The notes below the pieces were generated by a model, which was not told the DNA's origin, did no database searches, and was given only the letters and a program-made list of their open reading frames with translations. From positions 1-25,328 of the IMG/VR virus record IMGVR_UViG_3300028815_000025: DNA of 25,328 nucleotides, one strand, 5' to 3'. Shown here piece by piece: positions 7,820 to 25,328 of this stretch (positions are counted from its first letter, which is position 1; each line of letters begins with the position of its first letter). Both the position numbers and the translations under genes were made by a program. Source of the stretch: a virus.

Positions 7820-9001
7820 TTATTCTCCTTTTAAAACACTTTTGAATAGTTCAGCCCATTGTTCCGAAATTAGCTTCCAAGAAAATTCATCTGAGCTAAA
7901 CTTATCTATATTCTTTTGCGATAATTCTGCTAGCAAATCTCTATCACTATATAAGATTTCTAACTTTTCTGCCACATCATGTGGAGAAACAATTTTTCCT
8001 GTGGTAGTTATTTTATCAATTGTCCATTCTGTAATAGGGTCTACTACGAGTCCTACATCTTCATGTAACTTCCCCATAGATGAGTAGTTTCCCACAATTT
8101 GTGGAGCACCTGTTACTGCATGTTCCACATTCACTAGCCCAAAACCTTCTCCTAGGCTAGTATTTAATCCAACATCACAGATATTATAAATTTCGTTTAG
8201 CTGTTCAGTAGTAACTCTTTGGATTCCAGGATTCAAAGAAGTTAAAATTAATTTCTCGTCAATCCCTAACCTAGTTGCCATTCTTATAATATCTATGTGG
8301 TCATCAGTTACTCCACAGTGAGCATAGTATCTTGCATCATCCTTCCCTTGGGAAAATTCTGCAAAAGCTTTCATAGAAATATCTAGCCTTTTCCTAGGCT
8401 GATTTCTATTAGCGTTTAGAACAATAAAGTAATCTTTTGAATCATTATTTCCAAAAACTTTTCTTCTAATGTAGCTTTTGTCAGCACCAAGTTTATAGAA
8501 ATCAGATGTATCTACGCCATGATTAATAATTTTTACATCATATTTACCTTCGGTAGCTACTTCAATAACCCCTCTACCAAACTCCGTATAAGCAACAATA
8601 GCAGATACTTTGTCAAAGTCCTTGTACCAAGCGGGATTATGGTCTTCTGCATCTGCTGGAGTGTAAGTTACTATTTTAGGAAAATCTATTTGCTTTTTAT
8701 TGGAATAATCAATAAAATCTTGCAGATAATCCTTTTGTACCCAGGCATCATTCAAAATAAAAATAAGATTTGGCTGGTATACTTCCATCAGACCTTCTAT
8801 TCTCATATGACCATAGATATCTGCTGGATGCATTCTTGCCGGAAAAATTGGAAAAGTATAATCATGGGGGTCTCCCATATGGTTTATACCAAGTCCAATT
8901 ACTTCAAATTTATCTCTAGGTAAATATTTAATTATTGAATGAGATACCCTCGAAAATCCAGTAGGTGCTACCAAATCCGAAATCCATAAAATCCTTATCA
9001 T
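7820..9001 (-). CDS. Glycosyltransferase, GT-B fold (GT4-like)
   Basis: 393 residues, the usual length for this fold. The N-terminal Rossmann half opens MIRILWISDLVAPTGFSRV, with the Gly-rich acceptor loop at 14-19. The C-terminal half begins near residue 190 with FIVLNANRNQPRKRLD (a phosphate-contacting R-x4-K at 199-204) and carries the retaining-enzyme motif E285-GFGLVNV-E293 (EX7E), followed by a 'TGAPQIV' donor-site strand. These are standard GT4 features for transfer from a nucleotide sugar. The enzyme should be cytosolic, as no signal or membrane segment is seen. AAAGGAG lies 6 nt before the ATG. It stands inside the neck gene group, away from the main sugar cluster, next to structural genes, which suggests that a virion protein is the acceptor. 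Donor and acceptor are unknown. Confidence 0.85.
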   Translation of the reverse strand: MIRILWISDLVAPTGFSRVSHSIIKYLPRDKFEVIGLGINHMGDPHDYTFPIFPARMHPADIYGHMRIEGLMEVYQPNLIFILNDAWVQKDYLQDFIDYSNKKQIDFPKIVTYTPADAEDHNPAWYKDFDKVSAIVAYTEFGRGVIEVATEGKYDVKIINHGVDTSDFYKLGADKSYIRRKVFGNNDSKDYFIVLNANRNQPRKRLDISMKAFAEFSQGKDDARYYAHCGVTDDHIDIIRMATRLGIDEKLILTSLNPGIQRVTTEQLNEIYNICDVGLNTSLGEGFGLVNVEHAVTGAPQIVGNYSSMGKLHEDVGLVVDPITEWTIDKITTTGKIVSPHDVAEKLEILYSDRDLLAELSQKNIDKFSSDEFSWKLISEQWAELFKSVLKGE

Positions 9002-10087: not shown

Positions 10088-10987
10088 TTAGGTAATCTCA
10101 ATTACGTGAATGCCTTGAGCACGGTCAATAATCATTCCGAATCTTTGATACAATTCTAAGTTCCAATAAGGCGGGGTTGGTTCATAATTAATCCACTGTT
10201 TACTCTTTACGTCACCGTAAGTAATAAACTCGCCAACTCCCTCACCAATAACAAGAACTTTATTTGTAGGCAGTAATGCATTATAGTCTTCGGGATTATC
10301 GTACTCCTGAGCTAATGCTACAATTGGAGCGCCGTAGTATTTACCTAACCAGCCAGTATTCATAACCTCTTCAAGCTGTGAATCTACTCTATGTAGAGTT
10401 GAGCCTGTGTCTGCCCAGAAACCACCAAAAGTAGTAATCGGGGTTAGAAGCTCTCTAGTTCCTACAACGGCTCTTACACTACCAACTGTTTGATTTACTT
10501 TGTCAATGGCATTTTTTAGCGTAGCCGCATTAAGTGCTGTAGCAACTGAAGAGTAATTGTCTGGGGTGTTGCTTGTAGACCAGACAGTGCTCAGAGCAGT
10601 AAAGATTTTGTTCTGATAATAGTCTCGAAGTTTTGCCATCATTTCGCCACGAATCTCTTGGATTGTGCCTAGCTCCCCTGATTCAAGTTCCCATTCATTG
10701 AACTGAACACCTACGTCAGCGCCGTCTAACACATAGTTAGCTCGCTCTGTCACAGTAATCTCATCTTTCAGATGGATTGAGCCAGGAACTAAGGTACGTA
10801 CTTTTATACCTTTGCGTACTTTCTTAACTAGGATATCTCCCTCTTTAAGTGCTCTGCTGTTTAGGAGCATACCAACGAAGTCCACAGTAATGTGTCCAGG
10901 TTGTAGATACTCCACAAAAATTTGTGCTAAAGCATCGCGGTCATCCTTAACGGATGCTAAAGCTTCCTTTAGTTGTTTTTCATCCAT
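10088..10987 (-). CDS. Major capsid protein, probably HK97 fold
   Basis: 299 residues with a GGAGGA site 11 nt before the ATG. The opening is a helix (MDEKQLKEALASVKDDRDAL). A beta-hairpin-like stretch follows (HITVDFVGMLL, then GDILVKKVRKGIKVRTLVPGS, about residues 32-70, a candidate E-loop region), then a long 'spine'-type helix (IQEIRGEMMAKLRDYYQNKIFTAL, about 109-132), an alpha/beta P-domain (AIDKVNQTVGSVRAVVGTRELL) and a C-terminal beta part (PPYWNLELYQRFGMIIDRAQGIHVIEIT). This order, the length, and the position after portal, protease and decoration genes support the major capsid protein. No long N-terminal delta domain is present, which agrees with a separately encoded scaffold on the protease gene. 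Confidence 0.8.
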   Translation of the reverse strand: MDEKQLKEALASVKDDRDALAQIFVEYLQPGHITVDFVGMLLNSRALKEGDILVKKVRKGIKVRTLVPGSIHLKDEITVTERANYVLDGADVGVQFNEWELESGELGTIQEIRGEMMAKLRDYYQNKIFTALSTVWSTSNTPDNYSSVATALNAATLKNAIDKVNQTVGSVRAVVGTRELLTPITTFGGFWADTGSTLHRVDSQLEEVMNTGWLGKYYGAPIVALAQEYDNPEDYNALLPTNKVLVIGEGVGEFITYGDVKSKQWINYEPTPPYWNLELYQRFGMIIDRAQGIHVIEIT

Positions 10988-11011
10988 GTTCTAAAGTTTC
11001 CTCCGATAATT

Positions 11012-11572
11012 TTATAGTAAGCTCTTAACCGTTAGAGCACCAGTTGAGCTTTCGTAGCCCACTACTTGGAACTGAGTTGCTGACGCAGAGTGCTTTAACT
11101 TGCCTCTGTCTGCCCCTGCTGTATGTTCAGGAATTAAGTACTCGCCTAGCGTTACACCAGATGCAGAGTATACATAATGTCCACTTGGAATTTCATAAAC
11201 TCCCCTGCTGTGCATAAGCATCAGGTAACCAGAAGGAATTGTCTGTCCAATTTGAACAGAGGGTGCTGTCATTCTCACTAGAGCATTAAATGGAACATTT
11301 GCTGTTTGGTCAAATGCACCATATCTCAGTGACCAAGAAATAGCAGGATACGGTTGATAGATTGGGGGTTCAGTATTATCTGGCGGCCATGCAGAAATAT
11401 AAAAAGCTACAGCGGCTTCACCGGCAGATGTAGGCAATTTAGCTCCTGGCAGGTCTTCTCTACTACCAAAGTTATATGACCATGAGTTAGAAGTTAGCAA
11501 TACACATCTACCTTCTACAACATCAGTTTGGGCCACAGCCCCCATTACCTCACGTAAAATATTAACTTTCAT
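11012..11572 (-). CDS. Probable capsid decoration protein
   Basis: A 186-residue, beta-rich, Pro- and Gly-rich protein with no long helix, no Cys pair and no membrane segment. It begins MKVNILREVMGAVAQTDVVEGRCVLL, where a short helix leads into a 'VVEGRCVLL' strand. The second half contains RGVYEIPSGHYVYSASGVTLGEYLIPE. AGAGGT stands 9 nt before the ATG. It is placed immediately before the major capsid gene and after the protease gene, the classical site for head decoration (cement) proteins. The function is inferred from position and composition. Confidence 0.5.
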   Translation of the reverse strand: MKVNILREVMGAVAQTDVVEGRCVLLTSNSWSYNFGSREDLPGAKLPTSAGEAAVAFYISAWPPDNTEPPIYQPYPAISWSLRYGAFDQTANVPFNALVRMTAPSVQIGQTIPSGYLMLMHSRGVYEIPSGHYVYSASGVTLGEYLIPEHTAGADRGKLKHSASATQFQVVGYESSTGALTVKSLL

Positions 11573-11588
11573 TTTATGTTAACCTCTC

Positions 11589-11786
11589 TTATTCTTTCTT
11601 CACGTGAAGACCTCGTAAGCCTTCTCCAATTTCTTTAGCAGTATATTCCTGCCCCGAGTCAGCTTTAAGATTTGGAATATCTACTCCAGAATCTTTCTTT
11701 TTGTCTTCATCTTTTTCCCTAGTTGCAAAAGCTACCATTTCCTGTAAAATAAATTCAAGTGCATTGTCATCTAGGGATAGAAGCAT
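11589..11786 (-). CDS. Small acidic head-module protein of unknown function
   Basis: A 65-residue protein from the ATG at 11786 (MLLSLDDNALEFILQEM). This start is preferred because GAGG lies 6 nt upstream and the ATG follows the preceding TGA by one base. The alternative TTG at 11798 would add four residues. An N-terminal helix is followed by a highly charged linker (TREKDEDKKKDSG) and a C-terminal 'EYTAKEIGEGLRGLHVKKE' segment. It lies between the protease-scaffold and decoration genes, so an assembly accessory or scaffold-like role is possible, with no motif to confirm it. Confidence 0.6.
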   Translation of the reverse strand: MLLSLDDNALEFILQEMVAFATREKDEDKKKDSGVDIPNLKADSGQEYTAKEIGEGLRGLHVKKE

Positions 11787-11787
11787 T

Positions 11788-12546
11788 TCAGCCCTCAAAT
11801 TTAGTTTTAATAGCCGCTAGTTTTTCTGCTTTTTCTTTTGCAGAATCAATTTCAGCCTTAAACTCACGAAGTTCCTCAAGTTCCTGAAGCTCTTCATTGT
11901 ACTTATCTTCTTTTTCTTTAGCTTCGCTCTTCAGTTCTTCGATTTTTGAGTTAGCTTCGGCTAACTGACCATTAGCCTCATCTAATTTGGACTTAAGTTT
12001 TTCTAGCTCGTCCAATTTTTCTTTCTCCTTTTCCGCAATTGCGGTAATTTGAGTTCTTTCCTCATACGCAGGCTCACCTACGATAGCTAGTCCATTTAAA
12101 GACACTCCAGTTAAATCTTTAAATTTTCCATTTTCAATCTCATCTTTATAGGAAATTTCCCAAGAAACTTTGGGATTATTACCTTTGGCACTCATCTCTT
12201 CAAGAAGTTTAATATCTTCAGGACGCTCGTCAGGCCAAAGTGCTCCAAGAGCAATAACCTTGTCGTCTTCGCCCTTAAGTTTTGCGAGTACCCCAATAGG
12301 ATTTCCCCACGCCTCGGCGTGGCCATCGGAGATTACTCCCCTAGCCATTTTAATGGGTGCGTTCACGCCAGACTTGATAAGATTAGAAAACTCCGTATTT
12401 GGAATTCTGTGATTATTGGCATTAGGCTTATCATCAGTAACAATAACTCTACACCATTTAAAATTAGGGTTTAGAGAAATAGAAGCCTCAGCCTCGTAGT
12501 CACTTCCGATAAACTCTAAATCGCCGTTTACCGTAAAAGTTTTCAT
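11788..12546 (-). CDS. Prohead protease fused to a coiled-coil scaffold
   Basis: 252 residues in two parts. Residues 1-170 are an alpha/beta domain with candidate catalytic residues His76 (ISDGHAEAWGNPIGVL) and Ser128 (PKVSWEISYKDE), the His/Ser layout of phage maturation proteases, followed by LTGVSLNGLAIVGEPAY. Residues 172-250 are an almost unbroken Lys/Glu/Leu coiled coil typical of scaffolding. In many phages the scaffold is an in-frame extension of the protease and is destroyed after shell assembly. The gene follows the portal and precedes the capsid gene. AGGAGA lies 5 nt before the ATG, and the palindrome and promoter at 12559-12622 lie directly upstream, so it is probably the first gene of a capsid transcript. 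The catalytic pair is my reading and is not verified by alignment. Confidence 0.7.
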   Translation of the reverse strand: MKTFTVNGDLEFIGSDYEAEASISLNPNFKWCRVIVTDDKPNANNHRIPNTEFSNLIKSGVNAPIKMARGVISDGHAEAWGNPIGVLAKLKGEDDKVIALGALWPDERPEDIKLLEEMSAKGNNPKVSWEISYKDEIENGKFKDLTGVSLNGLAIVGEPAYEERTQITAIAEKEKEKLDELEKLKSKLDEANGQLAEANSKIEELKSEAKEKEDKYNEELQELEELREFKAEIDSAKEKAEKLAAIKTKFEG

Positions 12547-14130: not shown

Positions 14131-15687
14131 CTATAACCAAGACACTCTCATAAGGTTAGACACTCTTGGTCTTAGTTCTATTAATTCATTTTCTAAATAA
14201 TACGCCAAACTACCACAAAGTAAAGCGGCAGTATAATGGTCTTCTCCCCTCTTACCGCCTCTGTAAGTAAGGGTTTTGTATGAAATATCTCCATTTGGAT
14301 TTTTCATATATGTCATTCTTTCTAGTTCGGCTACGGTTTCTAGGTCTGTACTAGAATACACAATTTTATGTCCGTTTGAATATTCTTGTAAAACTGACAC
14401 GGACAATGGCTTAGTTTTGGATTTAATCTCTTTTCCATCAGAATCGTATCCAATTATAATTGAACTAGAAAAGTTTATAGGTCTAAGCCTGGTTCTGAAG
14501 TTCTTATGTAAATATTCATCCCCCTCCATAAGTCTTTGGGTTAAGGCTTTTCCAGCAGACCCCTCATCAACTCCTATTAAAGAAGGTTTAAATCTTAAAT
14601 CTAAGAAATCTATCAATTTCTCTTGTATACTATAAGACACTTTATTTAATTGTACTTTAGCGTGAAATTTTATAGTTCCTTTAGTTGTCAAGTATAGTAT
14701 AAAAATAGCAGTTGGGTCTGTATACCCTAAGTCAATACCCATTAACACCCCGCTGTTATTTTTAGGTGGAAGTGGTAAAAGGGAAAGTTTATTATAATAC
14801 TCATTTAGATTCTTTTCCAATTTTATACCATCAATTACTAGCTTGTAAACAGGATATTGCTCTATACTCATTAATCTTCTATCAAACACTGAGAATATAG
14901 GTGAGCCGTGCTCTCCGAGGAAGAAATGGATAAAATCTGGACTATCTTTTCCACCATATTGTTCAATAGCTCTGAGTTCGTCATCTTCCGTCATCCTTGG
15001 ATTATCGTAAGATGATACTCTGTGCTTAGTATACATATCAAGCTCTTGGTCAGCTAGATAAAGAATGTTGTTTTCTCTTAGTCCTGTGGGTACTCCGCAA
15101 ACTAACCACTGACATCCAGCCATCCATGTATTCATAATAGGTTGCATTTCTTGAAATGCTGGATGTGGAAAATATCCACCCTCATCTATAACTGCTATAG
15201 GAAGGTGAAGTCCTATAAAATTTCTACCATCTCCTGTTTGTCCAGCAATACGACTTTCGAAAATAGCCCCATTTAAAAGCTTAATTGTATTAGTCGAACT
15301 GTTAATTCCTTGGTTTTTTCGTAAAAAGTGTTTTAAGAAACTATGTTGTCTAAAATTTCTTACTAGTCCATCCCACACAGGTTGCATATGTACTTTTGAA
15401 GGTACTGCATATAACATAGTAAATGATGGAAATACATTAAAAATCATCCACCAGATAAACTTAGCTACTAAAGCAAAAGTTTTCCCAGTAGCTCTCGCTG
15501 TACATATGCTAACATGAGAATTAAAATCCCCTAAAATTTCTTGTTGATACCAATCCATTTTTAGAGGCTCATCATACTCTGTTATATCTAAATTATATAT
15601 GAACTCTGCACAGAAAACTGGATTTTTTAAAACTTCGTAAAGAATTAAATCTTCTTGAGTGACTACTTCTTTCTTTTTTAACGCCAT
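14131..15687 (-). CDS. terL: Terminase large subunit (packaging ATPase-nuclease)
   Basis: 518 residues from the ATG at 15687; a TTG at 15714 would add nine residues, and neither has a clear ribosome site. ATPase domain: WYQQEIL adenine-binding segment (46-52), Walker A ARATGKT (64-70, Lys69), Walker B IAVIDE (164-169, Asp168/Glu169), coupling motif CGVPTG (197-202). Nuclease domain: VLMGIDLGYTD with the first acidic residue, then IGVDEGSAG, and EDHYTAALLCGSLAY near the end with a third acidic residue, the RNase H-like arrangement. It packages DNA into proheads through the portal, encoded next. The start overlaps the upstream sulfotransferase gene by 10 nt, which links packaging to the sugar genes at the translational level. 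Confidence 0.93.
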   Translation of the reverse strand: MALKKKEVVTQEDLILYEVLKNPVFCAEFIYNLDITEYDEPLKMDWYQQEILGDFNSHVSICTARATGKTFALVAKFIWWMIFNVFPSFTMLYAVPSKVHMQPVWDGLVRNFRQHSFLKHFLRKNQGINSSTNTIKLLNGAIFESRIAGQTGDGRNFIGLHLPIAVIDEGGYFPHPAFQEMQPIMNTWMAGCQWLVCGVPTGLRENNILYLADQELDMYTKHRVSSYDNPRMTEDDELRAIEQYGGKDSPDFIHFFLGEHGSPIFSVFDRRLMSIEQYPVYKLVIDGIKLEKNLNEYYNKLSLLPLPPKNNSGVLMGIDLGYTDPTAIFILYLTTKGTIKFHAKVQLNKVSYSIQEKLIDFLDLRFKPSLIGVDEGSAGKALTQRLMEGDEYLHKNFRTRLRPINFSSSIIIGYDSDGKEIKSKTKPLSVSVLQEYSNGHKIVYSSTDLETVAELERMTYMKNPNGDISYKTLTYRGGKRGEDHYTAALLCGSLAYYLENELIELRPRVSNLMRVSWL

Positions 15688-16388
15688 CTGTTTTTGAATT
15701 TTTCTATTTCCCAAGGCTCATAAAAATATTGGGCATAGGGAGTATTATATGTCTCCTCCAGATATTCTTCTGGAAGTTTTACGTATTCTAGGAAATCTAA
15801 ATAAAATTTTCCTATTCTTTTTTTACGCATAAAGTTAGACTTGGGCATTTTTCCAACTTTATCCTCAATACCCAAGAAATCGGCTACGGGTCTAAAATTC
15901 AAATTTTCGAAATTTTCTACCCGCATAATTAAAATTTCTCGTTTCCTGTCCTTATATATTTGATAACCCTTTGATTTATTAAATCTTTTACTATCTAAAA
16001 TAGGGCCATAAAAATACCCAAATTCATGTATCCACCAATTCATAATACTATAATGTTTATAATTATCTAAAAAAGCCTGTACAGTATCATCTCCAACTTC
16101 CATTCTCTTATAGGCTGGATAGTATTTGTGAAGTCCTTGAAAAAAAGCAGAGATATTTCTAGCTACAGGGTCTCTCGTTAAAGAGATAATTTTATATGGT
16201 GGCCCACCAGTTCGTAGACTTTTTTCTAAAGGTGGTTTAGTAGTAGCATACTCTGCTTCTGGTAATCCCCTTATATAATGTGCATGTAGACTTTTATACC
16301 CCGCCTGTTTAATACCCACTTGCACAGAAATAGACCCTACTTTGCCCATGTTATGGATTAAACATTGATTATCCCCGAATTTCTGCAT
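15678..16388 (-). CDS. Sulfotransferase-fold protein (capsular-polysaccharide-synthesis-like)
   Basis: 236 residues. HNMGKVGSISVQ (12-23) resembles the 5'-phosphosulfate loop of PAPS-dependent sulfotransferases, with Lys16 and Ser19 in place. SLTRDPVARNISAFFQ (69-84) is the 3'-phosphate motif R-D-P-x5-S, and the 'RNISAFFQ' ending is characteristic, from memory, of the group annotated as putative capsular polysaccharide synthesis proteins. Expected role: moving sulfate from PAPS to a sugar hydroxyl in the cytosol. No PAPS-making gene is visible, so the host would supply the donor. It overlaps the preceding sulfotransferase gene by 20 nt and the large terminase start by 10 nt. The acceptor is unknown. 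Confidence 0.65.
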   Translation of the reverse strand: MQKFGDNQCLIHNMGKVGSISVQVGIKQAGYKSLHAHYIRGLPEAEYATTKPPLEKSLRTGGPPYKIISLTRDPVARNISAFFQGLHKYYPAYKRMEVGDDTVQAFLDNYKHYSIMNWWIHEFGYFYGPILDSKRFNKSKGYQIYKDRKREILIMRVENFENLNFRPVADFLGIEDKVGKMPKSNFMRKKRIGKFYLDFLEYVKLPEEYLEETYNTPYAQYFYEPWEIEKFKNRWR

Positions 16389-17115
16389 TTACTTTTTCCC
16401 AATAAATGTCATTCCACTCTTTAGTACCGTCCATCATCTCTTCATCAAACCAATCCATATAGTCTCCAATTATTCCCTTTCTTCTCCAAAGGTCGTTTCT
16501 TTTCTCTGTTCCAACTTCTCTTCCAGATTTAGTCTTGAAGGAATGTTGATGAATAATATATCTAATTTTTCTATCAGCAATTCCAGCATTTAGGAAATTA
16601 GAGATTGCCTTTATCTCCCTTTCTGTATCTTCAACTAACCATTCATAGGTAGTCCAAATATAGGGAAGTTCTGATTTAATTTTATTTCTAGTAGAATATC
16701 CAAAAAGCATATTATCTTGATGCTGAAGTTCTTCGTTCTTAAAATTTACATCTTCAAGAATTGTATATTTTATAGCATCAAAGTCAGTCTCTTCTTTGCG
16801 TTGTTGATATCCCTTATTCTTATCGTGATATCTATGATGAAATGCGTAAGATACCGCCCTATCCCTAGGATTTCTTACTATAGCTAAAACTTTATAATCT
16901 ACTGGAAGTACTTTTTCTAGAACATTGTCTACAGTACACCTGTGAAATTTTGGAATTTTATTTTCATCTAAGTATCCCCTGATTTTATTTCTCCAGTAGT
17001 AAAGTTTGTTTCTGTCAATTTCTGGGCTTACTTCTTTATTGTAAAGGTCTGCAAGTAAATAGTGAATCCATCTACTACCAACCCTATGCCCACTAATTAT
17101 AATTAAATTATCCAT
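16369..17115 (-). CDS. PAPS-dependent sulfotransferase
   Basis: 248 residues with all three family marks: 5'-phosphosulfate loop SGHRVGSRWIHYLL (8-21), 3'-phosphate motif VRNPRDRAVSY (80-90, Arg81 and Ser89), and a C-terminal WRRKGIIGDYMDWF (about 211-224), which corresponds to the RKGxxGDW nucleotide loop. It is soluble, with no membrane anchor, and would act in the cytosol on a sugar or glycolipid. It begins directly after the FkbM gene stop (TAAATG), with GGAG 6 nt upstream. It is clearly diverged from the next sulfotransferase, so the two probably act on different positions or acceptors. Confidence 0.85.
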   Translation of the reverse strand: MDNLIIISGHRVGSRWIHYLLADLYNKEVSPEIDRNKLYYWRNKIRGYLDENKIPKFHRCTVDNVLEKVLPVDYKVLAIVRNPRDRAVSYAFHHRYHDKNKGYQQRKEETDFDAIKYTILEDVNFKNEELQHQDNMLFGYSTRNKIKSELPYIWTTYEWLVEDTEREIKAISNFLNAGIADRKIRYIIHQHSFKTKSGREVGTEKRNDLWRRKGIIGDYMDWFDEEMMDGTKEWNDIYWEKVNAEIRG

Positions 17116-17766
17116 TTAATTCTCCATTTTGAATATATAATGTGAAGTCCATTTCCGTGTTCCAACCAGTTTGCCTTTAAGAGGTTGCATGGACTTAAAT
17201 AGTTCCTCTTCACTGTATCCTAAATCTTTCTTCTGATGTCTTTCTATCATCCATATGATATTGTCTAAGTGTTTAATATCTTTACCGCTTTCAATAACAT
17301 CTAATTCATTTCCCTCAGTGTCTATTTTTATAATTGCCTTGTCGAAAAACGGATTCCAGCTAAAAATAGTATCAAGAGAAACCCATCCTACATCTGCTTT
17401 ATGAATCCTAATTCCAGTTTTAGGGCCTATCATTCCTCTGCTAGACATTGAATTTAGATAAACTTCTTCATCTCCTGTTCCTACAGCTAGGGAAAATATA
17501 GATACGTTACCAAATTTCCCTACATTATCCTGTAGAATTTTATTTCGTTTGGGGTGAGGTTCGAATGCATATACGTGGGCAGTATTGTGTGCCGCAACAA
17601 GTGCGTGGTATCCCCATCCTGCTCCTACATCTACAAACATATCATATTCCTGTGTTTCCAAAATTTTAATAAACTCTTTTTCAAACATAAACTCAGCATG
17701 AGCTTGTTCATTTTTCTTTGCTACGGGAAGATAAATAGTTCCGTATTTTGTCTTTAATTCTCCCAT
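17116..17766 (-). CDS. FkbM-family SAM-dependent methyltransferase
   Basis: 216 residues. Motif I FVDVGAGWGYHAL (44-56), the ribose-binding acidic residue in AFEPHP (67-72), and the FkbM signature KIDTEGNELDVIESG around 147-161, preceded by VSLDTIF. These are the standard positions for this family, whose known members O-methylate sugars, including methylation of bacterial surface glycans. The N-terminus has a short lead-in (GTIYLPV) instead of a fused transferase domain, so it is the stand-alone type. It overlaps the preceding GT42-like gene by 13 nt. In this setting it most likely methylates a sugar of the glycan made by the neighbouring enzymes. Confidence 0.85.
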   Translation of the reverse strand: MGELKTKYGTIYLPVAKKNEQAHAEFMFEKEFIKILETQEYDMFVDVGAGWGYHALVAAHNTAHVYAFEPHPKRNKILQDNVGKFGNVSIFSLAVGTGDEEVYLNSMSSRGMIGPKTGIRIHKADVGWVSLDTIFSWNPFFDKAIIKIDTEGNELDVIESGKDIKHLDNIIWMIERHQKKDLGYSEEELFKSMQPLKGKLVGTRKWTSHYIFKMEN

Positions 17767-18473
17767 GTTACCTCATTAAAGTCTATTCTTGGTAAATATT
17801 TTTCGTCTAAAACAGTTCTAGTACTAGCATTGTAAATTTTACGACCAGCCTCTTCATAAACTTCTCTAGCCATTTGGTAAGACTTAGCCATTCTTTCTAC
17901 TTGCGGTATAAACCATTTAGTTCCTTCTGGATAGTAATCTTTTGTAAAATGATTTATATCCTCTCCTTTAGTTTCCACTAAAGGAAATCCTGCTTGAGCT
18001 ATACCTGTTTCATTTACCTGTTTAAGCTGTTCATCTAATTTTTCATAATGGTCTAAACCTACACAATATAACTCTTGTATACCCATAAAGTACGCAAACT
18101 GCATAGCTAGAAAAGTACTAGTACCTCCACCGTGTACTCCATTATAGGGATTCTTACAAAACTCTACTTTAGGGTGTCCTCTAAAAGCATATATTGGACT
18201 TTTAGGATTAGTGAATAATTTCCTAATACCATTGGATACAAATAGACCTGCTATTCTGAGTTCTTCAATTTCATCTAAATGCTGAATAGCTATATTTTTA
18301 TCTCCAATAAAATGATAATATGGGGTAAAATGTTCTAACTTATAGACTAAACTAACCGAAAAAGTTAATTCTCTATTTAAAATATCTACTGGAATATCAT
18401 TTAAACTGGGCCCGCCAGCTACAAGAATTGCTTTTTCGCCCTTCCATAAATTTGAAAATCTCCCGAAACTCAT
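17754..18473 (-). CDS. GT42/MptE-like (DUF115) protein, candidate nonulosonate transferase, copy 1
   Basis: 239 residues from the ATG at 18473, chosen because it overlaps the upstream TGA as ATGA and has GGAG 8 nt upstream; a GTG at 18482 would place that GGAG against the start. Motifs: AGGPSLND (19-26), GGGTSTFLAMQFAYFMG (115-131), VGLDHYE (138-144), INHFTKDYYP (173-182, His175), YNAS near the end. GT42 sialyltransferases such as Campylobacter Cst-II carry comparable landmarks: an N-terminal 'GNGPSL' CMP loop, a 'GIDFY' segment and a catalytic His in 'SHY'. Flagellar Maf proteins, which transfer nonulosonic acids, share this fold. The neighbouring NeuA- and NeuB-like genes make transfer of a CMP-nonulosonate the best guess. 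A generic MptE-like protein remains possible. Confidence 0.6.
   Translation of the reverse strand: MSFGRFSNLWKGEKAILVAGGPSLNDIPVDILNRELTFSVSLVYKLEHFTPYYHFIGDKNIAIQHLDEIEELRIAGLFVSNGIRKLFTNPKSPIYAFRGHPKVEFCKNPYNGVHGGGTSTFLAMQFAYFMGIQELYCVGLDHYEKLDEQLKQVNETGIAQAGFPLVETKGEDINHFTKDYYPEGTKWFIPQVERMAKSYQMAREVYEEAGRKIYNASTRTVLDEKYLPRIDFNEVTWEN
17929..17957 (-). repeat. 29-nt direct repeat, copy 1 (conserved His motif)
   Basis: Twenty-nine bases here are identical to 20116-20144. In both places they encode the motif INHFTKDYYP, with every synonymous position the same, although the two genes are otherwise well diverged. Confidence 0.85.
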
Positions 18474-19174
18474 TTTTTCCACTCCAAGTTGTGTTTTCTT
18501 ACTAGATACGTCATGTTATCTAGTCTGTGCTTCCTGTAATTATCAAATGTTTTTCTGATTCTCTCTTCCAAATGAACAAAGGGTAACTTACTTTGTTGTA
18601 TATCATAACCCTTCCAAGCTCCTCTGAAACAATAATCAGCATCCTCAAAACCAGCTATTTTAAAATTCTCATCAAAAAACCCTATTTTCTCAACAGCCTC
18701 TACCGGTATTGCATATATCCACCCATCTATAAAAGGAACAGGATGTTTAAATTTAGGAAAGTTACTGTGTATTTTATTTCCGTATAGCGTGTTTTTGTCA
18801 AGAGTTTTCAAATAATTTATAAAGCTTCCAGTACAAAGTACATCATTATTAGTTATAATTACCCACTCAACATTTGAGGGAATTCCTGTTTCAGCAGGTC
18901 TTTCCTTAAAGTTCCATAGAACTTCTAATCCTTTGTTTATAGCTTTTGCGTAAGAGCACGGAAGTATATTCTCTGAGTTTTCGTCTAAAGAACATTTATT
19001 CCATAGCACATATCCCTTTCCTAACCACTCTGTTTTCTGAACTCCGGTATATTTATGACCATTATCTACACAAATTACTATCAAATCTCGTTCGTATTTT
19101 AAAATAGAATCAATAAGAGGTTCTGTATATTTTTCCCACTGACCTATCCCTACAATAATCACTGCCGCATTCAT
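18470..19174 (-). CDS. Glycosyltransferase, GT-A fold (GT2-like)
   Basis: 234 residues. The opening MNAAVIIVGIGQWEKYTEPLIDSI is the first strand and helix of a GT2 domain; VICVDNG (33-39) holds the nucleotide-binding Asp; WVIITNNDVLC (104-114) takes the place of the DxD metal site; FDENFKIAGFEDADYCFRGAWKGY (about 173-196) is the acceptor-side 'FDE..F...ED.D...R....G' signature of rhamnosyl-type GT2 enzymes. It is soluble, with no transmembrane helix. It overlaps the upstream glycosyltransferase gene by 4 nt (ATGA) and the downstream GT42-like gene likewise. It should add one sugar from a nucleotide donor to the growing glycan. Donor and acceptor are not readable from sequence. Confidence 0.85.
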   Translation of the reverse strand: MNAAVIIVGIGQWEKYTEPLIDSILKYERDLIVICVDNGHKYTGVQKTEWLGKGYVLWNKCSLDENSENILPCSYAKAINKGLEVLWNFKERPAETGIPSNVEWVIITNNDVLCTGSFINYLKTLDKNTLYGNKIHSNFPKFKHPVPFIDGWIYAIPVEAVEKIGFFDENFKIAGFEDADYCFRGAWKGYDIQQSKLPFVHLEERIRKTFDNYRKHRLDNMTYLVRKHNLEWKK

Positions 19175-19956
19175 TTTTTTCTTTTTTTACCTCTCCCAAG
19201 TAGCTTAAAGTTTTCAAGTTTATCGTCTTGTTCATACTCTATATTATAAGTTTGCTTATCAAGTTTTCTACTTTTCCATGCACTGGGGTTAGTAGTTAAT
19301 AATCCGTTCATTCCAATATTATATGCTCTAGCAACTAAAGGTTGGTATTTTCCTTCAGTATGTTTTCGGATAAGTTGAGTTACAATAGTATCATAATAAG
19401 GTGTTCTTCTATCAGGGTCATATCTAGTTTTCCACCCAGATTTCATAGAATTCCAGCTATCTCTGGTTAGGTAAAAGCCCCACAGTCTAGGTCTAGATGC
19501 TTTTTCCAATTTGTGTAAATCCTGTGGAATCCTTGGTTCTTTTATTCTAACCGTGTGAAAGCTAGCAGTAACATTTGGGTATTGTTCTGAGCATCTATCC
19601 AAAAGTCTCAAATAATTTCTACAGACAACTAGGTCATCTTCAAATATAAATAATCTCTCATATTCATTAAATAGATTAAAAACCTTGTTTATTTGATTAT
19701 TTACGCCTTCATTTTTACTATTTATTGTTAAATTTGTTACGGGTAAGGTAGTACTCTTTATTCTAGCTATGTTTTTTTCTATGTCTTCTGACGTAGATAA
19801 AAAATAGGGTGTTTTACTTTCAGGATACCCCTCTAAATTATCTTGAAAAAAATGCCAATCAAATTTTTCAGCGCCTATACAATTTTCTAAACTTGATAAA
19901 CACTTGTCCAAATATTTCCATCTACACATAGTTATTATAGCTACTGCTGTTTTCAT
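19171..19956 (-). CDS. Glycosyltransferase, GT-A fold
   Basis: 261 residues. MKTAVAIITMCRWKYLDKCLSSL starts the Rossmann-like domain; ERLFIFEDDLVVCRNYLRLL (100-119) contains the metal-binding acidic triplet Glu106-Asp107-Asp108 after a 'LFIFED' strand, like GNT-I or GT2-type enzymes; RLWGFYLTRDSWNSM (about 147-161) is the usual aromatic acceptor-site segment. The C-terminal 20 residues are strongly basic (LLGRGKKRKK), which might contact membrane phospholipid or nucleic acid. There is no transmembrane segment. It is linked by 4-nt overlaps to the genes on both sides. Family placement between GT2 and GT13-like enzymes is uncertain. Confidence 0.75.
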   Translation of the reverse strand: MKTAVAIITMCRWKYLDKCLSSLENCIGAEKFDWHFFQDNLEGYPESKTPYFLSTSEDIEKNIARIKSTTLPVTNLTINSKNEGVNNQINKVFNLFNEYERLFIFEDDLVVCRNYLRLLDRCSEQYPNVTASFHTVRIKEPRIPQDLHKLEKASRPRLWGFYLTRDSWNSMKSGWKTRYDPDRRTPYYDTIVTQLIRKHTEGKYQPLVARAYNIGMNGLLTTNPSAWKSRKLDKQTYNIEYEQDDKLENFKLLGRGKKRKK

Positions 19957-20612
19957 ATCTTGTTAAAATTAATTCTTGGTATTATTTCTTCGGAAAGTTT
20001 AGTCACACTACTTGCATTATAAAGTTCTCTCTGATTACTTTTATAAACTTTATATGCTTCTCTATATGAATTTTCTAATGCTTCTAAATTTTGAAATCTA
20101 AAAAAATAATTTGGAGGATAGTAATCTTTTGTAAAATGATTTATGTCTTTATCTTTATTTCTAAACTCCATTTTATGTTTAATAGATTTACTGTAATCCA
20201 CAAAATGATTCATTCCTACAATATATACAGGATTTAACCCCATGTAAAATGCAATTTGTAAAGCTACTATTGTAACTGAATGTCCTAACTTCATACCCTT
20301 AGTGATATCAGTGGAAAATTTACCAGACCCAAGCCTATATCTAAAAACTCCAGCTACCTCTGGTACAAAGTCATGACAAAATTTTATACCCTGCTGTTTA
20401 ATTAATTCTTGTGCAAATTCTTTTTCAACTCTTTTATCTGCTGTAATTAGGTATGAGTAATTCATATCTTGTTTTAAATATCCTCTATTTAAAGCTATAA
20501 TTATTTTATCATTAATTTTAGAAAAATCAACGTCATTTAAACTGGGGCCGTTACAACAAATAATTCCAATTTCGTTTGAGTGAATATCTTTAAATCTTTC
20601 TAAATAGTTCAT
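19953..20612 (-). CDS. GT42/MptE-like (DUF115) protein, candidate nonulosonate transferase, copy 2
   Basis: 219 residues, GGAG a few bases before the ATG. Motifs in the same order as the gene at 17754-18473: CCNGPSLNDVD (19-29; here the full 'NGPSL' form seen in GT42 enzymes), LGHSVTIVALQIAFYMGLNPVYIVGMNH, and INHFTKDYYP with His159, then ELYNAS and a matching ending (IIPRINFN against LPRIDFN). The copy 1 segment VGLDHYE is VGMNHF here, so the Asp is replaced by Asn. The two are paralogues that may transfer different nonulosonates or act on different acceptors. Activity is inferred from family and context only. Confidence 0.6.
   Translation of the reverse strand: MNYLERFKDIHSNEIGIICCNGPSLNDVDFSKINDKIIIALNRGYLKQDMNYSYLITADKRVEKEFAQELIKQQGIKFCHDFVPEVAGVFRYRLGSGKFSTDITKGMKLGHSVTIVALQIAFYMGLNPVYIVGMNHFVDYSKSIKHKMEFRNKDKDINHFTKDYYPPNYFFRFQNLEALENSYREAYKVYKSNQRELYNASSVTKLSEEIIPRINFNKI
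20116..20144 (-). repeat. 29-nt direct repeat, copy 2 (conserved His motif)
   Basis: Identical over 29 bases to 17929-17957 and on the same strand. The copies are about 2.2 kb apart inside the two GT42-like genes, and the match stops abruptly on both sides. Confidence 0.85.
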
Positions 20613-20983
20613 TTATCTCCAAAAACTCTAAACAAAGTATATGGACATTCTTTAGTAAAGTAGTCTATATACTGCTCATTTCCATCTAAGTCATCAAACA
20701 GATAATCAATAGAATATTCCCTTACCATTCTAGCTTTCCAAGTACCATTGTTCCCAGGTGTTTCTTTTAATTCCTTTTTTTCATCGTCCGTTTTACAGAT
20801 ATAAAAATCTGGCTCTGGAAAACCTCCTTGTTTCCATAGCTCCAAATCTTTTGTTTTTAAATTGCAATTATGTGAAGTTAGTATACCTATTTCGTGTCCA
20901 AAAAATTGCATTGCGTTTACAAAATCTTTAAAAAACTCTCTATGAAACCACGCTGTTCCGTCTAGGTCAATAGCTATTTTCAC
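20609..20983 (-). CDS. HAD-superfamily phosphatase-like protein
   Basis: 124 residues, GTG start that shares its last bases with the upstream TGA (GTGA). Motif I is IDLDGT (5-10, Asp6 nucleophile and Asp8), and the GTG is fixed by this motif lying at the N-terminus. Motif II is the Ser/Thr strand in GILTSHN. A Lys in TWKARMVREY fits motif III, and YLFDDLDGN provides motif IV acidic residues. No cap domain is inserted, so it is a short C0-type member likely to accept a bulky or polymeric substrate. Among sialate genes, a sugar-phosphate phosphatase (for example acting on a nonulosonate 9-phosphate) is an attractive guess. A nucleotidase is the alternative. Confidence 0.7.
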   Translation of the reverse strand: MKIAIDLDGTAWFHREFFKDFVNAMQFFGHEIGILTSHNCNLKTKDLELWKQGGFPEPDFYICKTDDEKKELKETPGNNGTWKARMVREYSIDYLFDDLDGNEQYIDYFTKECPYTLFRVFGDK

Positions 20984-21792
20984 TGATATCTTCTTTCTTT
21001 TAGGAAGGAGTACTCGTCAGATTCAACTTCTGAGTATTCCTTAGAATGAACTAATTCTGTTTCTCTTATATCTCTAACCATCTGTTCAAACTCTGCTACT
21101 GTTAAAGATGCATCAATATGGTGGATTTTTAAATCCCTAGAGAGAGTTATATGTCTCTCTACAAAACTAACTCCTAATCTGATAGCCTCTAGTGTTGGCA
21201 TCCAGCCTTCTTCGTGACCGGAATATCCAATGGTAACATCAGGCTCAAAGGTATCTCGTAGTTTTTTAATAAAACCTATATTGCATTGTTCCAGTGGAGT
21301 CGGATAAATTGAAACACAGTGATTCAAAATTAATTTTAGATTAGTAGACAATACTGTATCAACTACCTCTTGAATCTGTGTAAAATTTAAACCCCCAGTA
21401 CTTACTATCAGTGGTTTGCCTATACCAGAAAATAGCCTCAGGAACTCTAACTCTGTAGCATCCATAGACGCTACCTTGTAAAATGGAGGATTAAATTTTG
21501 AAATAAACTCTAATCCTTTTTCATCATGAATAGTGGAAAACCAAGGAATTTGAATTTCTCTACAGTATTCATCCAAGACCTCAAAATCTTTTTTTGAAAG
21601 TTCCATAGATGCTCTATACATATTGAAGTCATAACCCCTGTATTTCTTTCCAGATACGTAATAATTATTTACATCTTTTATTTTAAACTTTACAAAGTTT
21701 GCCCCAACTTCTTTGCTTCTCAGGGCTAAAATCTTAGCAAACTTTATCATCCCTAAGTGGTTAATAGATATCTCAGATATTATATTTACCAT
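20980..21792 (-). CDS. neuB: Sialate (nonulosonate) synthase-like TIM barrel lacking the SAF domain
   Basis: 270 residues; typical NeuB proteins have about 340-350 because a C-terminal antifreeze-like (SAF) domain follows the barrel. Barrel landmarks: IISEISINHLG (4-14), NFVKFKIKD (32-40), FSTIHDEKGLEFI (85-97), YKVASMDATE (105-114), LIVSTGG (128-134), LNHCVSIYPTP (156-166), TIGYSGHEEG (187-196), VERHITLSRD (211-220), HHIDASLT (224-231). The enzyme condenses phosphoenolpyruvate with an N-acyl-hexosamine. Known NeuB proteins have 'GPDH' before the 'AS' pair; here it reads 'KIHHIDAS', so one metal-ligand His may be shifted by a residue. It overlaps the RraA-like gene by 7 nt and the HAD gene by 4 nt. 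Confidence 0.8.
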   Translation of the reverse strand: MVNIISEISINHLGMIKFAKILALRSKEVGANFVKFKIKDVNNYYVSGKKYRGYDFNMYRASMELSKKDFEVLDEYCREIQIPWFSTIHDEKGLEFISKFNPPFYKVASMDATELEFLRLFSGIGKPLIVSTGGLNFTQIQEVVDTVLSTNLKLILNHCVSIYPTPLEQCNIGFIKKLRDTFEPDVTIGYSGHEEGWMPTLEAIRLGVSFVERHITLSRDLKIHHIDASLTVAEFEQMVRDIRETELVHSKEYSEVESDEYSFLKERRYQ

Positions 21793-22442
21793 CTTCCATA
21801 TTTCCTATAAATCTCATCCAAGTTTTTTCCAGAGTTTATCTCTTTCCTTATAGAATTTTCTCTCCTGGTCTCATCATATACTCGTGCAAAAAAATCAGGG
21901 GCCCACTCATTTTTTATTAGTAAAATTCCATCATTATCCGCAAAAATATAATCTCCAGTGTTTATTTTTAAACTTTGATTGGGAAAATCTGCTGGTAACT
22001 CTATTTGTTCTCCATAGGAAGTTAACACCCACCTGTTTAAAGCATCAACGGGGGAAACATATTTGCAAAAACAGGGAAATTTCATATTGATTATTAAATT
22101 ACTATCTCTAACACCCCCATCTGTGATAAAACCAGAGGCTCTAGCCTTTCTATAAATTTGTAAGGTTATATCTCCAGCGTGTGCTATTTGGTCAGTTGTG
22201 TCATTTGATTGTAAAAGAACAATATCTCCAAGATTTATTTCATTAACTATTTCCAACCTAATTTTGTCTAACTCTTCGTAGCTGTAAGACCCAGGCTTAT
22301 ACATCTGTCCTGTAGTTGTAAACACTTTACTAAAAATCACAGAGTCATTTCGTAATGGTCTTATTTCTCTGCTTATCAAACACTCATTATCTTTTATTCC
22401 CATTTTAGCTAGAGTATCATAAACAATTCCTGAATAAATCAT
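21786..22442 (-). CDS. RraA / HMG-aldolase family protein
   Basis: 218 residues with the fold's signature: NLGDIVLLQSND (70-81), AHAGDITLQIYRKARASGFITDGGVRDS (87-114, containing DGGVRD at 108-113), VSPVDALNRW, and a closing TGDYIFADNDGILLI (about 162-176). Family members are 4-hydroxy-4-methyl-2-oxoglutarate aldolases (pyruvate release) or the E. coli RNase E inhibitor RraA; the fold cannot tell which. The Gly/Arg-Asp metal-pyruvate site looks intact, so an enzyme is more likely than a pure regulator. GGAGG lies 7 nt before the ATG. Lying between NeuA- and NeuB-like genes, it could act on a 2-oxo acid sugar. Why a phage would carry it is unclear. Confidence 0.75.
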   Translation of the reverse strand: MIYSGIVYDTLAKMGIKDNECLISREIRPLRNDSVIFSKVFTTTGQMYKPGSYSYEELDKIRLEIVNEINLGDIVLLQSNDTTDQIAHAGDITLQIYRKARASGFITDGGVRDSNLIINMKFPCFCKYVSPVDALNRWVLTSYGEQIELPADFPNQSLKINTGDYIFADNDGILLIKNEWAPDFFARVYDETRRENSIRKEINSGKNLDEIYRKYGRW

Positions 22443-23092
22443 AATAATGCCTCCGCTATAGCCAAATCCTCATAATCATTTATATCCAATCCCTCTCTCT
22501 TTGAGATAGGAATCACAAAAGGAATATTCCCAACTCTGCGCTTTAGTCTAAATAAAGTTTTTGTGTAAATCCCATATAATCCGTGTGTTTCCATATACTT
22601 AGGAGGTAGCTCAAAACTATTCGGAATATTATTTAAATCATACTCCGGAAGAAAATTCTTATCCCAAAAATATTCGTGAAGTTTATTTACAGTAAAGAAA
22701 CTATCGTACTTTGAAGAACCTGTTAAAAATTTTTCTATACATGTGTCTATAGTTTGGGAAGTTAAAAATGGTGAGGTAGCAAAAGTCTGAATAAGTAAAT
22801 CACAATAATCTACCGAATGTAATGCCCACATCATTAGTTCATTTGCTCCAATAAAATTAGTAGCTAACTCTTTGGGTCTCCGTATAATCTTTAGACCAGC
22901 ATTCACTAAAGGCTCACATTCAGCTATGATTGAATCATCTTCCGTATCTAAATATACCTCATGAATCATTTTAGATTTTAAAGTTCTTTCACATGCCCTG
23001 TAAACTAAAGACATTCCTCCTAAAAGGTATTTGTTTTTATTTTTTAGTCTTACGCTTTTACCCTTAGCTGGAATTACTGCTGTTATTCTCAT
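22439..23092 (-). CDS. neuA: CMP-nonulosonate (acylneuraminate) cytidylyltransferase
   Basis: 217 residues, the normal length of the catalytic domain. AVIPAKGKSVRLKNKN (5-20) is the nucleotide-binding P-loop-like start of NeuA/KdsB enzymes; YLDTEDD (about 47-53) and RRPKEL (71-76) follow; TFATSPFLTSQTID corresponds to the 'TSPLR' active-site strand; GLDINDYEDLAIAEAL at the C-terminus supplies the metal-binding Asp pair. The reaction is CTP plus a nonulosonic acid giving CMP-sugar and pyrophosphate, the activated donor for sialyltransferase-type enzymes such as the two GT42-like proteins nearby. It overlaps the upstream nucleotidyltransferase by 29 nt and the RraA-like gene by 4 nt (ATGA). KDO is a possible alternative substrate. 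Confidence 0.83.
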   Translation of the reverse strand: MRITAVIPAKGKSVRLKNKNKYLLGGMSLVYRACERTLKSKMIHEVYLDTEDDSIIAECEPLVNAGLKIIRRPKELATNFIGANELMMWALHSVDYCDLLIQTFATSPFLTSQTIDTCIEKFLTGSSKYDSFFTVNKLHEYFWDKNFLPEYDLNNIPNSFELPPKYMETHGLYGIYTKTLFRLKRRVGNIPFVIPISKREGLDINDYEDLAIAEALL

Positions 23093-23738
23093 TCTGTAAC
23101 CTTTTTATTAAATTTGTGTAATCATTCCATGAAGCTAAATCAAAGTAATAATCCATTTGAAAAGTATTTAGCCCAAAAGTACTTATGGCTAGATTTATTG
23201 CAGTGGTATAAGTATCTATATCTAAGTTTTTCCAAAACTCTGCTACTTCCTTAGACCACACGATAGTACCCCATGCATCATAAACTCCCTTTAAACTTTC
23301 ATCTTTGTTTACAACACGCCCAGAATCTGCTATAACTCCAAATCTTTCTGGTTTATCTGTTTTAAAAATTCCTAAATAAAAATCTTTTGTAAACTCTCTC
23401 ACAAAAGTATTATCTGGAATAAATGTATCTGGCATGGCAAATAAATTATATTCGCCAGCTAGGGGTAAACTTTCATATATAGCTCCATAAATATCTTTGT
23501 CTTCTCGTTGAATTGTATACCAAAGTCTATGAAACCCATATTTCTCTAAATGTTGAACATGGGTATGGATTTTTTCTTTGTTACTAACAACTAGAATATC
23601 TTCTGCCCCACCTAAAAACATGGTGGTAATTGTTTTATCAATCATCCATTTTTTATTACCCACAGGTAAAAGTTCTTTGTAATATCCACCCCATCTAGTA
23701 CCTTTACCAGCGGCTGGAATAACTCCAAGTATACTCAT
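23064..23738 (-). CDS. Sugar nucleotidyltransferase (RmlA/GlmU-like domain)
   Basis: 224 residues. GVIPAAGKGTRWGGYYKELLPVG (5-27, in two parts) is the GxGTR...KEL/P motif that binds the NTP; FAMPDTFIPDN near 99-109 provides the 'PD' metal site; GVYDAWGTIVW (about 149-159) matches the sugar-contacting strand; the C-terminus (MDYYFDLASWNDYTNLIKRL) resembles the ending 'w.D.gt...l..A'. The product is an NDP-sugar from a sugar 1-phosphate. The choice of base and sugar cannot be read. In the legionaminic acid route of Campylobacter a related enzyme (PtmE) makes a GDP-sugar precursor, so an upstream step to the nonulosonate is conceivable. It is the first gene of the sugar block; AAGGGG lies rather far (14 nt) before the ATG. 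Confidence 0.78.
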   Translation of the reverse strand: MSILGVIPAAGKGTRWGGYYKELLPVGNKKWMIDKTITTMFLGGAEDILVVSNKEKIHTHVQHLEKYGFHRLWYTIQREDKDIYGAIYESLPLAGEYNLFAMPDTFIPDNTFVREFTKDFYLGIFKTDKPERFGVIADSGRVVNKDESLKGVYDAWGTIVWSKEVAEFWKNLDIDTYTTAINLAISTFGLNTFQMDYYFDLASWNDYTNLIKRLQNENNSSNSS

Positions 23739-23757: not shown

Positions 23758-24435
23758 TTATTTTAAAGTATCCGGTAAAATTTCCGGTTTGTTTGTACCA
23801 TCTTTAACAAGCTCTGAAAGTTGAACTGTAAACGTATATTCGCAGGGTTCGTCATTAGCTTGTTTTTTATTGCACCTTAAAGTTAATTCATTTTTTTCCT
23901 CATCGGCGTACATAGTCCAAACAGTAGAAAGTAATAAGTTACAGTTTGGGCAAAAAATATAAATCATTTTTTGCTTATAATATTCTTTAGCTTTTTCTTT
24001 TAGGGTTTCTATAGCCTCAATGAGAGATTCTGCTTTATCACTTTTTCTAGACTTGCGTACAATTTTTAAATCATCCTGTAATTTTGAAATATCACTACGA
24101 AGGTCTGACATCTGTCTATGTAATTCTCTAAGGACTGTCAAATTTTCATGTGTAATTCCATTCTCAGATGTACGCAGTTCATAGTAAGTATTCTCTAGGT
24201 CGTTAAGCGTAATGACCGCTTGGGCTAATGCCCTAAGCGTCATCATGTCATTTACCTTCAAGTCGTCTAAATCATAGTCTTCTGAAAAACTTCTAAGAGT
24301 AGCCTCGATTCTAGTTTCAAAATTTTGGTTATGGGAGGACTGAGTAAGCCTCATGTCCATAACTCTACTAAATTCTTCGTCAGATAAATCTCTATATTGA
24401 GGAAGGTTTCTTAAACTTTTAGGATTAACTGGCAT
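23758..24435 (-). CDS. Candidate terminase small subunit with C-terminal zinc ribbon
   Basis: 225 residues, AGGAGA 5 nt before the ATG. Beginning MPVNPKSLRNLPQYRDLSDEEF, it has helices to about residue 85 (EDYDLDDLKVNDMMTLRALAQAVITLNDLE), a coiled-coil-like stretch at 95-156, and four Cys at 162, 165, 188 and 198 (CPNC ... C ... C) fitting a zinc ribbon. 'NPxSLxNL' openings followed by a helical DNA-binding part and an oligomerising coil are common in small terminase subunits, which recognise the packaging site. In most phages that gene directly precedes the large subunit; here the sugar block lies between. A zinc-binding transcription regulator is the main alternative. Its own promoter stands immediately upstream. 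Confidence 0.4.
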   Translation of the reverse strand: MPVNPKSLRNLPQYRDLSDEEFSRVMDMRLTQSSHNQNFETRIEATLRSFSEDYDLDDLKVNDMMTLRALAQAVITLNDLENTYYELRTSENGITHENLTVLRELHRQMSDLRSDISKLQDDLKIVRKSRKSDKAESLIEAIETLKEKAKEYYKQKMIYIFCPNCNLLLSTVWTMYADEEKNELTLRCNKKQANDEPCEYTFTVQLSELVKDGTNKPEILPDTLK

Positions 24436-24884: not shown

Positions 24885-25062
24885 AGGTATCTTCTAGCAT
24901 GTTTATTTCTTCGTCTACTCTATATAAATCTTCCATAACTTTTTGAGCTTCCTCGTAAGTAATATCTCTATAAGATATTACATTTCCGTTATAGTCTATA
25001 ACCTCTAAGCGTCCTAGCTCATGATTATATTCTAGAGTATGTTCAAACATTTCGCACATCAT
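24874..25062 (-). CDS. Small acidic protein of unknown function
   Basis: A 62-residue protein, MMCEMFEHTLEYNHELG; ATGs at 25062 and 25059 are both compatible with the GGAG just upstream, and the second has the better spacing. It is acidic, with a beta-like start (RLEVIDYNGNVISY) and a C-terminal helix (YEEAQKVMEDLYRVDEEINML). It overlaps the methyltransferase end by 20 nt and the zinc-finger gene by 11 nt. No motif is recognised. Confidence 0.6.
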   Translation of the reverse strand: MMCEMFEHTLEYNHELGRLEVIDYNGNVISYRDITYEEAQKVMEDLYRVDEEINMLEDTYGY

Positions 25063-25328
25063 CCTTCTCCATTTCCTCTACAGTGTACGGAGTGAGTCTT
25101 TCCCAAGCAATTTTACAGTATTTTTCTGAAATTTCCGTACCTGCAAAGTGCCTATTCATTTCCAAACAAGCTTGGGCAGTTGCTCCACAACCCATAAATG
25201 GGTCAAATACCAATTCACCAGCTTCGGTGAAGTGATGTATTACCTTTTTAATTAATTCAACTGAAGTCATGCCTGGATTTGGATACCTTTCCTCTCTAAA
25301 GAAGTATCCCTCCCCTGGTAACCTGATG
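25043..25328 (-). CDS. DNA methyltransferase (N4/N6 type), C-terminal part only
   Basis: The reading frame is open to the right edge (about 94 codons visible), so the N-terminus is outside; the Met at 25270 is internal. Upstream of it the frame continues LPGEGYFFREERYPNPG. The visible part carries the SAM-binding motif VFDPFMGCGATAQACLE, the DPF.G.G(T/A)T form placed C-terminally as in beta-class enzymes, then MNRHFAGTEISEKYCKIAWERL, the acidic strand-2 motif. The catalytic (D/N/S)PP(Y/W) motif would lie outside the window. Phage orphan methyltransferases of this class commonly protect DNA from restriction. The target sequence is unknown. Confidence 0.85.
   Translation of the reverse strand, partial: IRLPGEGYFFREERYPNPGMTSVELIKKVIHHFTEAGELVFDPFMGCGATAQACLEMNRHFAGTEISEKYCKIAWERLTPYTVEEMEKDDVRNV

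Follow-up and report, generated by a model that had tools for sequence, protein, structure and literature searches.

The DNA analysed here, the entire IMG/VR virus record IMGVR_UViG_3300028815_000025 (25,328 bases, hereafter the window), carries a block of twelve carbohydrate genes between packaging genes, at positions 15678-23738. We propose, with a probability of about 0.5, that this block is a phage-borne cassette making a glycan of the ulosonate type activated with cytidine monophosphate (CMP), with a virion protein as the likeliest acceptor. A preliminary description of the window, made from the sequence alone, had reported such a glycan cassette with transferases, an FkbM methyltransferase and sulfotransferase genes, and the family matches support it. 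Profile searches placed seven proteins above the Pfam cut-off in the expected families (NeuB, RraA-like, CTP_transf_3, NTP_transferase, FkbM, Sulfotransfer_1 and NKWYS) rather than in unrelated ones, the outcome that the preliminary description had named as speaking against its proposal. Both MptE-like proteins and the second GT-A glycosyltransferase remained below the Pfam cut-off, and the first GT-A glycosyltransferase and the HAD protein were assigned from motifs. All twelve genes lie on the minus strand, as do the large terminase gene (terL), the gene flanking the block on its other side and the GT4 gene described below.

The NeuB, NeuA and GT42-like core

The NeuB-type synthase (20980..21792) is a short protein of 270 amino acids, highly deviant in sequence. 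Its NeuB TIM-barrel domain is present (PF03102, 1.6e-53 across residues 27-249; SpsE, 6e-31), and the scores stay below the equivalog level for both NnaB (162 bits, cut-off 400) and PseI (150 bits, cut-off 340). The residues of the phosphoenolpyruvate (PEP)/metal site, E7, K35, K106, H193 and H214, are all kept, together with N11, H12, S131-G133, Y163 and E212. The protein ends 56 residues past H214; it has neither a SAF domain at its C-terminus nor the Arg by which that domain binds the substrate. A tail of SAF size is also missing from 88 of the 97 rows of the viral NeuB alignment and from 74 of the 84 rows of the bacterial one. The Caulobacter NeuB cannot do without a Glu and the SAF Arg: its variants E30A and R322A are inactive (PMC7591256). 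A SAF-less enzyme must therefore bind the aldose differently.

The NeuA-like CMP-sugar synthetase (22439..23092) matched PF02348 (1.1e-13) and the PDB entry of PpNeuA (6e-11), and it matched PseF at 1.1e-13, under the equivalog cut-off. The cytidylyltransferase domain and the N-terminal nucleotide loop are present; in this loop the Lys is kept and an Arg found in 96% of viral NeuAs is replaced by Lys. Between NeuA and NeuB lies the gene of an RraA-like class II pyruvate aldolase (21786..22442; PF03737, 2.6e-17), which keeps DGGVRD, a motif of such aldolases. An insensitive single-seed search of 82 viral and 80 bacterial NeuB loci found no RraA relatives; there were none among 50,697 phage records and none in a pattern-limited viral scan with an RraA alignment, and the 3.6-kb stretches fetched around relatives in bacterial genomes contained neither NeuA nor NeuB. 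The same interval is occupied by a SIS-domain gene at one viral NeuB locus (L057) and by a DegT aminotransferase gene at another (L004), which suggests to us that a precursor enzyme, differing between cassettes, is placed here. By making or cleaving a pyruvate-derived keto acid, the aldolase could feed or replace NeuB.

The two GT42-like (MptE-like) transferases are encoded at 19953..20612 (transferase 1) and 17754..18482 (transferase 2). Both matched PF01973 at about 1e-7, below its cut-off. A profile of the pair with its viral homologs (23 rows) matched Campylobacter CstI/CstII at 8e-14, the MptE pterin kinase at 2e-4 and 5mu5, which we take to be a Maf-type structure, at 0.058. When the profile was restricted to the pair and its five nearest viral homologs (7 rows), CstII scored 2e-6 and 5mu5 0.018, and MptE was not listed. 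Compared by hhalign, the closer half of the family matched the more distant half with a probability of 97. We therefore take the pair as GT42-like by homology, with a putative transferase activity. A pterin-kinase function was considered and rejected, as the GT42 profile scores far better. The two genes also have in common a 45-nt stretch (17929-17973 and 20116-20160; INHFTKDYYP) with 87% identity, their proteins being only about 30% identical, which would reflect local gene conversion or strong constraint.

NeuA, NeuB and GT42-like genes form a recurrent viral set. Scans of viral contigs with a single TerL or a single NeuB protein gave no matches, whereas alignment queries succeeded. From the NeuB alignment query we used the best 80 of 452 viral-contig stretches and kept 80 of at least 522 bacterial ones; in the loci retrieved, profile searches were iterated to identify the neighbours, and dereplication left 64 viral and 66 bacterial loci. 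NeuA was found at 52/64 viral and 38/66 bacterial loci, and GT42/MptE-like genes at 28 of the viral loci as opposed to a single bacterial one. The corresponding Fisher p-value of about 1e-9 is valid for these samples only, because the loci were sampled by similarity to the window NeuB and not at random. Relatives of the sulfotransferase, HAD, GT-A, NTP and RraA genes were sought within the loci by single-seed searches, and since these are insensitive, their zeros are weak evidence. The proteins from seven viral NeuB loci include terminase, PhoH and replicative helicase. At two loci (L026 and L057), NeuB is followed by two tandem, co-directional GT42-like genes upstream of a phrog_2 terL, resembling the window. 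A general rule that NeuB lies beside TerL was discarded, as only five viral NeuB loci have this TerL family, and they have it in both orders.

Two further observations concern these loci. In an uncultured phage of 484 kb (LR756508.1, locus 7253-12421, L003), three proteins beside NeuB matched GT29 sialyltransferase (1e-26 to 8e-32), and a fourth, from the open reading frame (ORF) 11325-12074, resembles them; this locus is possibly a phage sialylation cassette of another kind. Radical SAM (10/141 neighbours), B12-binding and thiamine pyrophosphate-enzyme domains recur beside viral NeuBs, hinting at further unusual sugar chemistry.

Block layout and packaging neighbours

The twelve ORFs contain 0 internal stops, so that the coordinates, strand and intact frames given in the preliminary description for twelve coupled genes were borne out. 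From the flanking ORF starting at 23758 to terL, the junctions measure +19, -29, -4, -7, -4, -4, -4, -4, -13, -13, 0, -20 and -37 nt. Overlaps had been described as mostly of 4-20 nt; they do prevail within the block (10 of 11 junctions), but they range from 4 to 29 nt, and the remaining junction abuts (0). The last block gene overlaps the start of terL, as had been noted, by 37 nt when a TTG start is assumed and still by about 10 nt with an in-frame ATG nine codons on. A chance arrangement is ruled out by twelve intact, coupled frames, most of them with family matches. The block runs in the same direction as the packaging and structural genes, with which it is probably transcribed. No terminator-like sites were recognised on the coding strand inside the block, which together with the co-orientation indirectly supports the late expression suggested previously. 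Promoter-like and terminator-like sites were not more frequent than in shuffled sequence, and Shine-Dalgarno-like sites are common in the window. The GC content at third codon positions is 0.17-0.28 in the block and 0.25 in terL and portal; thus, composition shows no sign of very recent import.

The remaining genes of the block would supply sugar donors, further sugars and decorations. The RmlA/GlmU-like sugar nucleotidyltransferase (23064..23738) matched PF00483 (2.6e-10) and RmlA structures (E about 0.01). The small HAD-like phosphatase (20609..20983) was recognised by its motifs DLDGT, ILTS, K and FDDLD; it had no Pfam or NCBIfam match and matched PHROG groups of unknown function weakly. 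Putative GT-A glycosyltransferase 1 (19171..19956) carries an N-terminal RWKYLDKCLSSL and EDD and had no family match in Pfam, PHROG or NCBIfam; its single-sequence fold prediction (predicted local distance difference test, pLDDT, 33) was not used. GT-A glycosyltransferase 2 (18470..19174) matched the galactosyl transferase group phrog_29879 (1.7e-5), with sub-threshold Pfam GT2/GT7 matches. The remaining three encode an FkbM-family methyltransferase (17116..17766; PF05050, 3e-11; TIGR01444, 1.3e-18, above cut-off), a sulfotransferase (16369..17115; PF00685, 3.1e-17) with the motifs GHRVGSRW, RNPRDRAVSY and RRKGIIGD, resembling those that bind 3'-phosphoadenosine 5'-phosphosulfate, and a sulfotransferase-like NKWYS-family protein (15678..16388; PF10364, 4.2e-9; motifs HNMGKVGS and TRDPVARNISAF), whose gene is the one overlapping terL. 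Among the structural genes, a GT4 glycosyltransferase (7820..9001; PF00534, 6e-9; phrog_2170, 3.9e-36) is a possible partner. The window also encodes, at 3176-6952, a protein of 1258 amino acids with many copies of a VGITD-type repeat of about 20 residues (60-bp DNA period), which may belong to the tail or the virion surface and is a candidate acceptor of the glycan.

The matches of TerL (14131..15714; phrog_2, 2e-19) and of the portal protein (phrog_2739) confirm a tailed phage; the nearest portal relatives are from Bacillus and Microcystis phages (26-28% identity). Distant TerL relatives, with about 20-26% identity, were found in Caudovirales GX15bay and six IMG/VR contigs, some of them closely alike. 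Where the upstream region of these relatives could be read, the order is a gene of about 205 amino acids, a helix-turn-helix gene of about 175 amino acids, terL, portal and the major capsid protein (MCP), with two further small ORFs between the helix-turn-helix gene and terL in one contig (L086). A profile of the first gene had the ORF 23758-24435 as its sole match in the window (E 1.8e-5); for the second gene, the window offered no match. Since the upstream gene is homologous, the 8-kb block fills a slot between a conserved gene and terL, which agrees with the earlier placement between packaging genes: in the relatives, only the small helix-turn-helix gene separates the homolog of 23758-24435 from terL. 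The flanking gene had been considered a candidate small terminase; it matched neither a TerS family nor a helix-turn-helix profile in Pfam or PHROG, and its homology to the gene preceding terL in relatives is positional only. In GX15bay, these packaging genes are directly preceded by another, unrelated cassette of glycosyltransferase and methyltransferase genes, so the region has gained glycan genes more than once. In the same region of the relatives, extra in-frame intein-like segments were judged by eye from the translations of the gene before terL (L086, 7223-8773) and of TerL itself in another contig (L087, 2665-5043). At the window edge, the C-terminal part of an N6/N4 DNA methylase (25043-25327) runs off the record end.

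Proposed mechanism and alternative explanations

We infer the following pathway. The NeuB-type synthase would condense phosphoenolpyruvate with an aldose into a sialic-acid-like ulosonic acid, and the small HAD may take off a phosphate. The NeuA-like enzyme would activate the acid with CMP, and the two GT42-like transferases would put it on the acceptor. GT-A transferases, and perhaps the GT4 protein, would add other sugars from RmlA-like donor synthesis, and FkbM and the sulfotransferases would cap the glycan. No epimerase or aminotransferase was matched within the block, as the preliminary description had stated, and the phage could plausibly draw on a sugar precursor of the host. We describe the cassette sugar only as ulosonate-like, given a strongly deviant NeuB without SAF and an aldolase of the RraA type with no explained role. 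Virion proteins are the likeliest acceptors; soluble enzymes would glycosylate them in the cytoplasm, a mode of transfer onto protein that is established for bacterial flagellin (PMC7591256).

Several points weigh against this proposal. It leaves the aldolase between NeuA and NeuB unexplained, and NeuB not only lacks the SAF domain but is changed at 18 of 53 positions that are near-invariant in the short clade (122 rows), where the median is 0 departures and the next row has 6, aside from one extreme row with 23, the second NeuB-like ORF of another locus (L069). Single GT42-like sequences from the window reached no PDB relative. A predicted GT42-like structure (pLDDT 74.5) resembles viral MptE-like/DUF115 proteins, and a Foldseek search of the PDB with this model gave no significant match, including to GT42; its top hits, mostly with template modelling scores below 0.35, were disregarded. 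Being linear, the record is probably a fragment, and genes for membrane proteins or precursor synthesis may lie beyond its ends. The acceptor itself is putative, and we favour virion proteins at about even odds because no cassette protein looks membrane-embedded and the block is located in the packaging operon.

It is possible, although somewhat unlikely, that the same enzymes remodel a host surface glycan (lipopolysaccharide, capsule or flagellin) with an ulosonate-type sugar, for example to block superinfection. Surface polysaccharide loci normally need a flippase, a polymerase and an initiating transferase. No clear membrane segment was found in any cassette protein (highest 19-residue hydropathy 1.58), and the block holds no flippase, polymerase or lipid-carrier transferase; the packaging-gene location suggests late expression, when remodelling would be less useful. 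Campylobacter GT42 sialyltransferases do act on lipooligosaccharide. Clusters of glycosyltransferase genes in pelagimyophages have been interpreted as host-surface remodelling (PMC7029224).

A second explanation, which we regard as improbable, is that NeuB now serves another purpose or has ceased to produce a nonulosonate, the acid sugar of the methylated, sulfated glycan being made otherwise, for instance by the RraA-like aldolase, or being absent. Beside the aldolase in the NeuA-NeuB slot, the NeuB branch is about 10x the median, with unsure placement in the tree, and the changed positions include the GSDQ loop and the QKR that follows the K35 motif. By analogy with Neisseria NeuB, the positions lost would probably be found near where the aldose binds. 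However, the frame is intact with overlaps of 4-7 nt on either side, the PEP/metal-site residues are kept, and NeuA and two GT42-like genes are retained. An unbroken frame with such coupling leads us to favour a changed specificity of NeuB over decay. Transfer of the sugar onto phage DNA instead of protein is very improbable: phage glycosyltransferases hypermodifying DNA are known, according to the passage of PMC12619734 that cites Pyle 2024, but in the window no modified-base synthesis gene was recognised, only the edge-truncated DNA methylase, and NeuA/NeuB/GT42, FkbM and sulfotransferases are not known signatures of DNA modification.

Implications and comparison with known systems

Each of the enzyme families, and phage glycan cassettes in general, are already known. 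As far as we searched, the viral NeuB-NeuA-GT42 association, the RraA variant and the location in a packaging operon are new; no description of phage NeuB cassettes was found in the open-access literature, the text covered here. Beyond the cassette proposed above, we offer as an unlikely extension that viruses own a recurrent system of SAF-less NeuB, NeuA and GT42-like proteins decorating virions with ulosonic acids, which in this phage has evolved, with an RraA-like aldolase and a strongly altered NeuB, so that an undescribed acid sugar, methylated and sulfated, is made and deployed by genes of the packaging operon. If the cassette function proposed above is right, many phages would carry a compact, apparently undescribed toolkit for making and attaching sialic-acid-like sugars, going beyond the borrowing of host sugars. 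Such virion coats could alter recognition by receptors, defences or antibodies, and perhaps hitherto unknown chemistry of acid sugars is indicated by the clade of short NeuBs and by the aldolase lying between NeuA and NeuB.

Among the systems with which the window can be compared, glycosyltransferases encoded by mycobacteriophages are reported to glycosylate proteins of the capsid and tail (PMC12619734, citing Freeman 2023), and the citing passage describes no nonulosonate pathway. GX15bay (MK557849) shares distant TerL, portal and MCP relatives and a glycosyltransferase/methyltransferase cassette near the packaging genes; it differs in having neither NeuA nor NeuB, and its cassette precedes the conserved upstream gene instead of lying between that gene and terL. 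Closer in content are the viral NeuB cassettes (L026, L057, LR756508 and MH319754), with a SAF-less NeuB, usually NeuA and often GT42-like genes, or GT29 sialyltransferase in LR756508. RraA was not found in them, whereas a SIS-domain or aminotransferase gene can occupy the NeuA-NeuB interval. Campylobacter CstI/CstII (GT42) are the best PDB match of the GT42-like family profile and have the GPSL and G[LM]D motifs in common with it; the known members act on lipooligosaccharide and are remote from the window pair. Bacterial flagellin glycosylation with nonulosonates (NeuB/PseI, PseF, Maf or FlmG; PMC7591256, PMC13317340) likewise combines a NeuB-type synthase, a CMP-sugar synthetase and soluble transferases, and methylated derivatives occur there too. 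In contrast to that system, the cassette in the window lacks precursor enzymes of the PseB/C/H/G type, is phage-borne, has a NeuB without SAF and GT42-like instead of Maf transferases, and contains RraA and sulfotransferases in addition.

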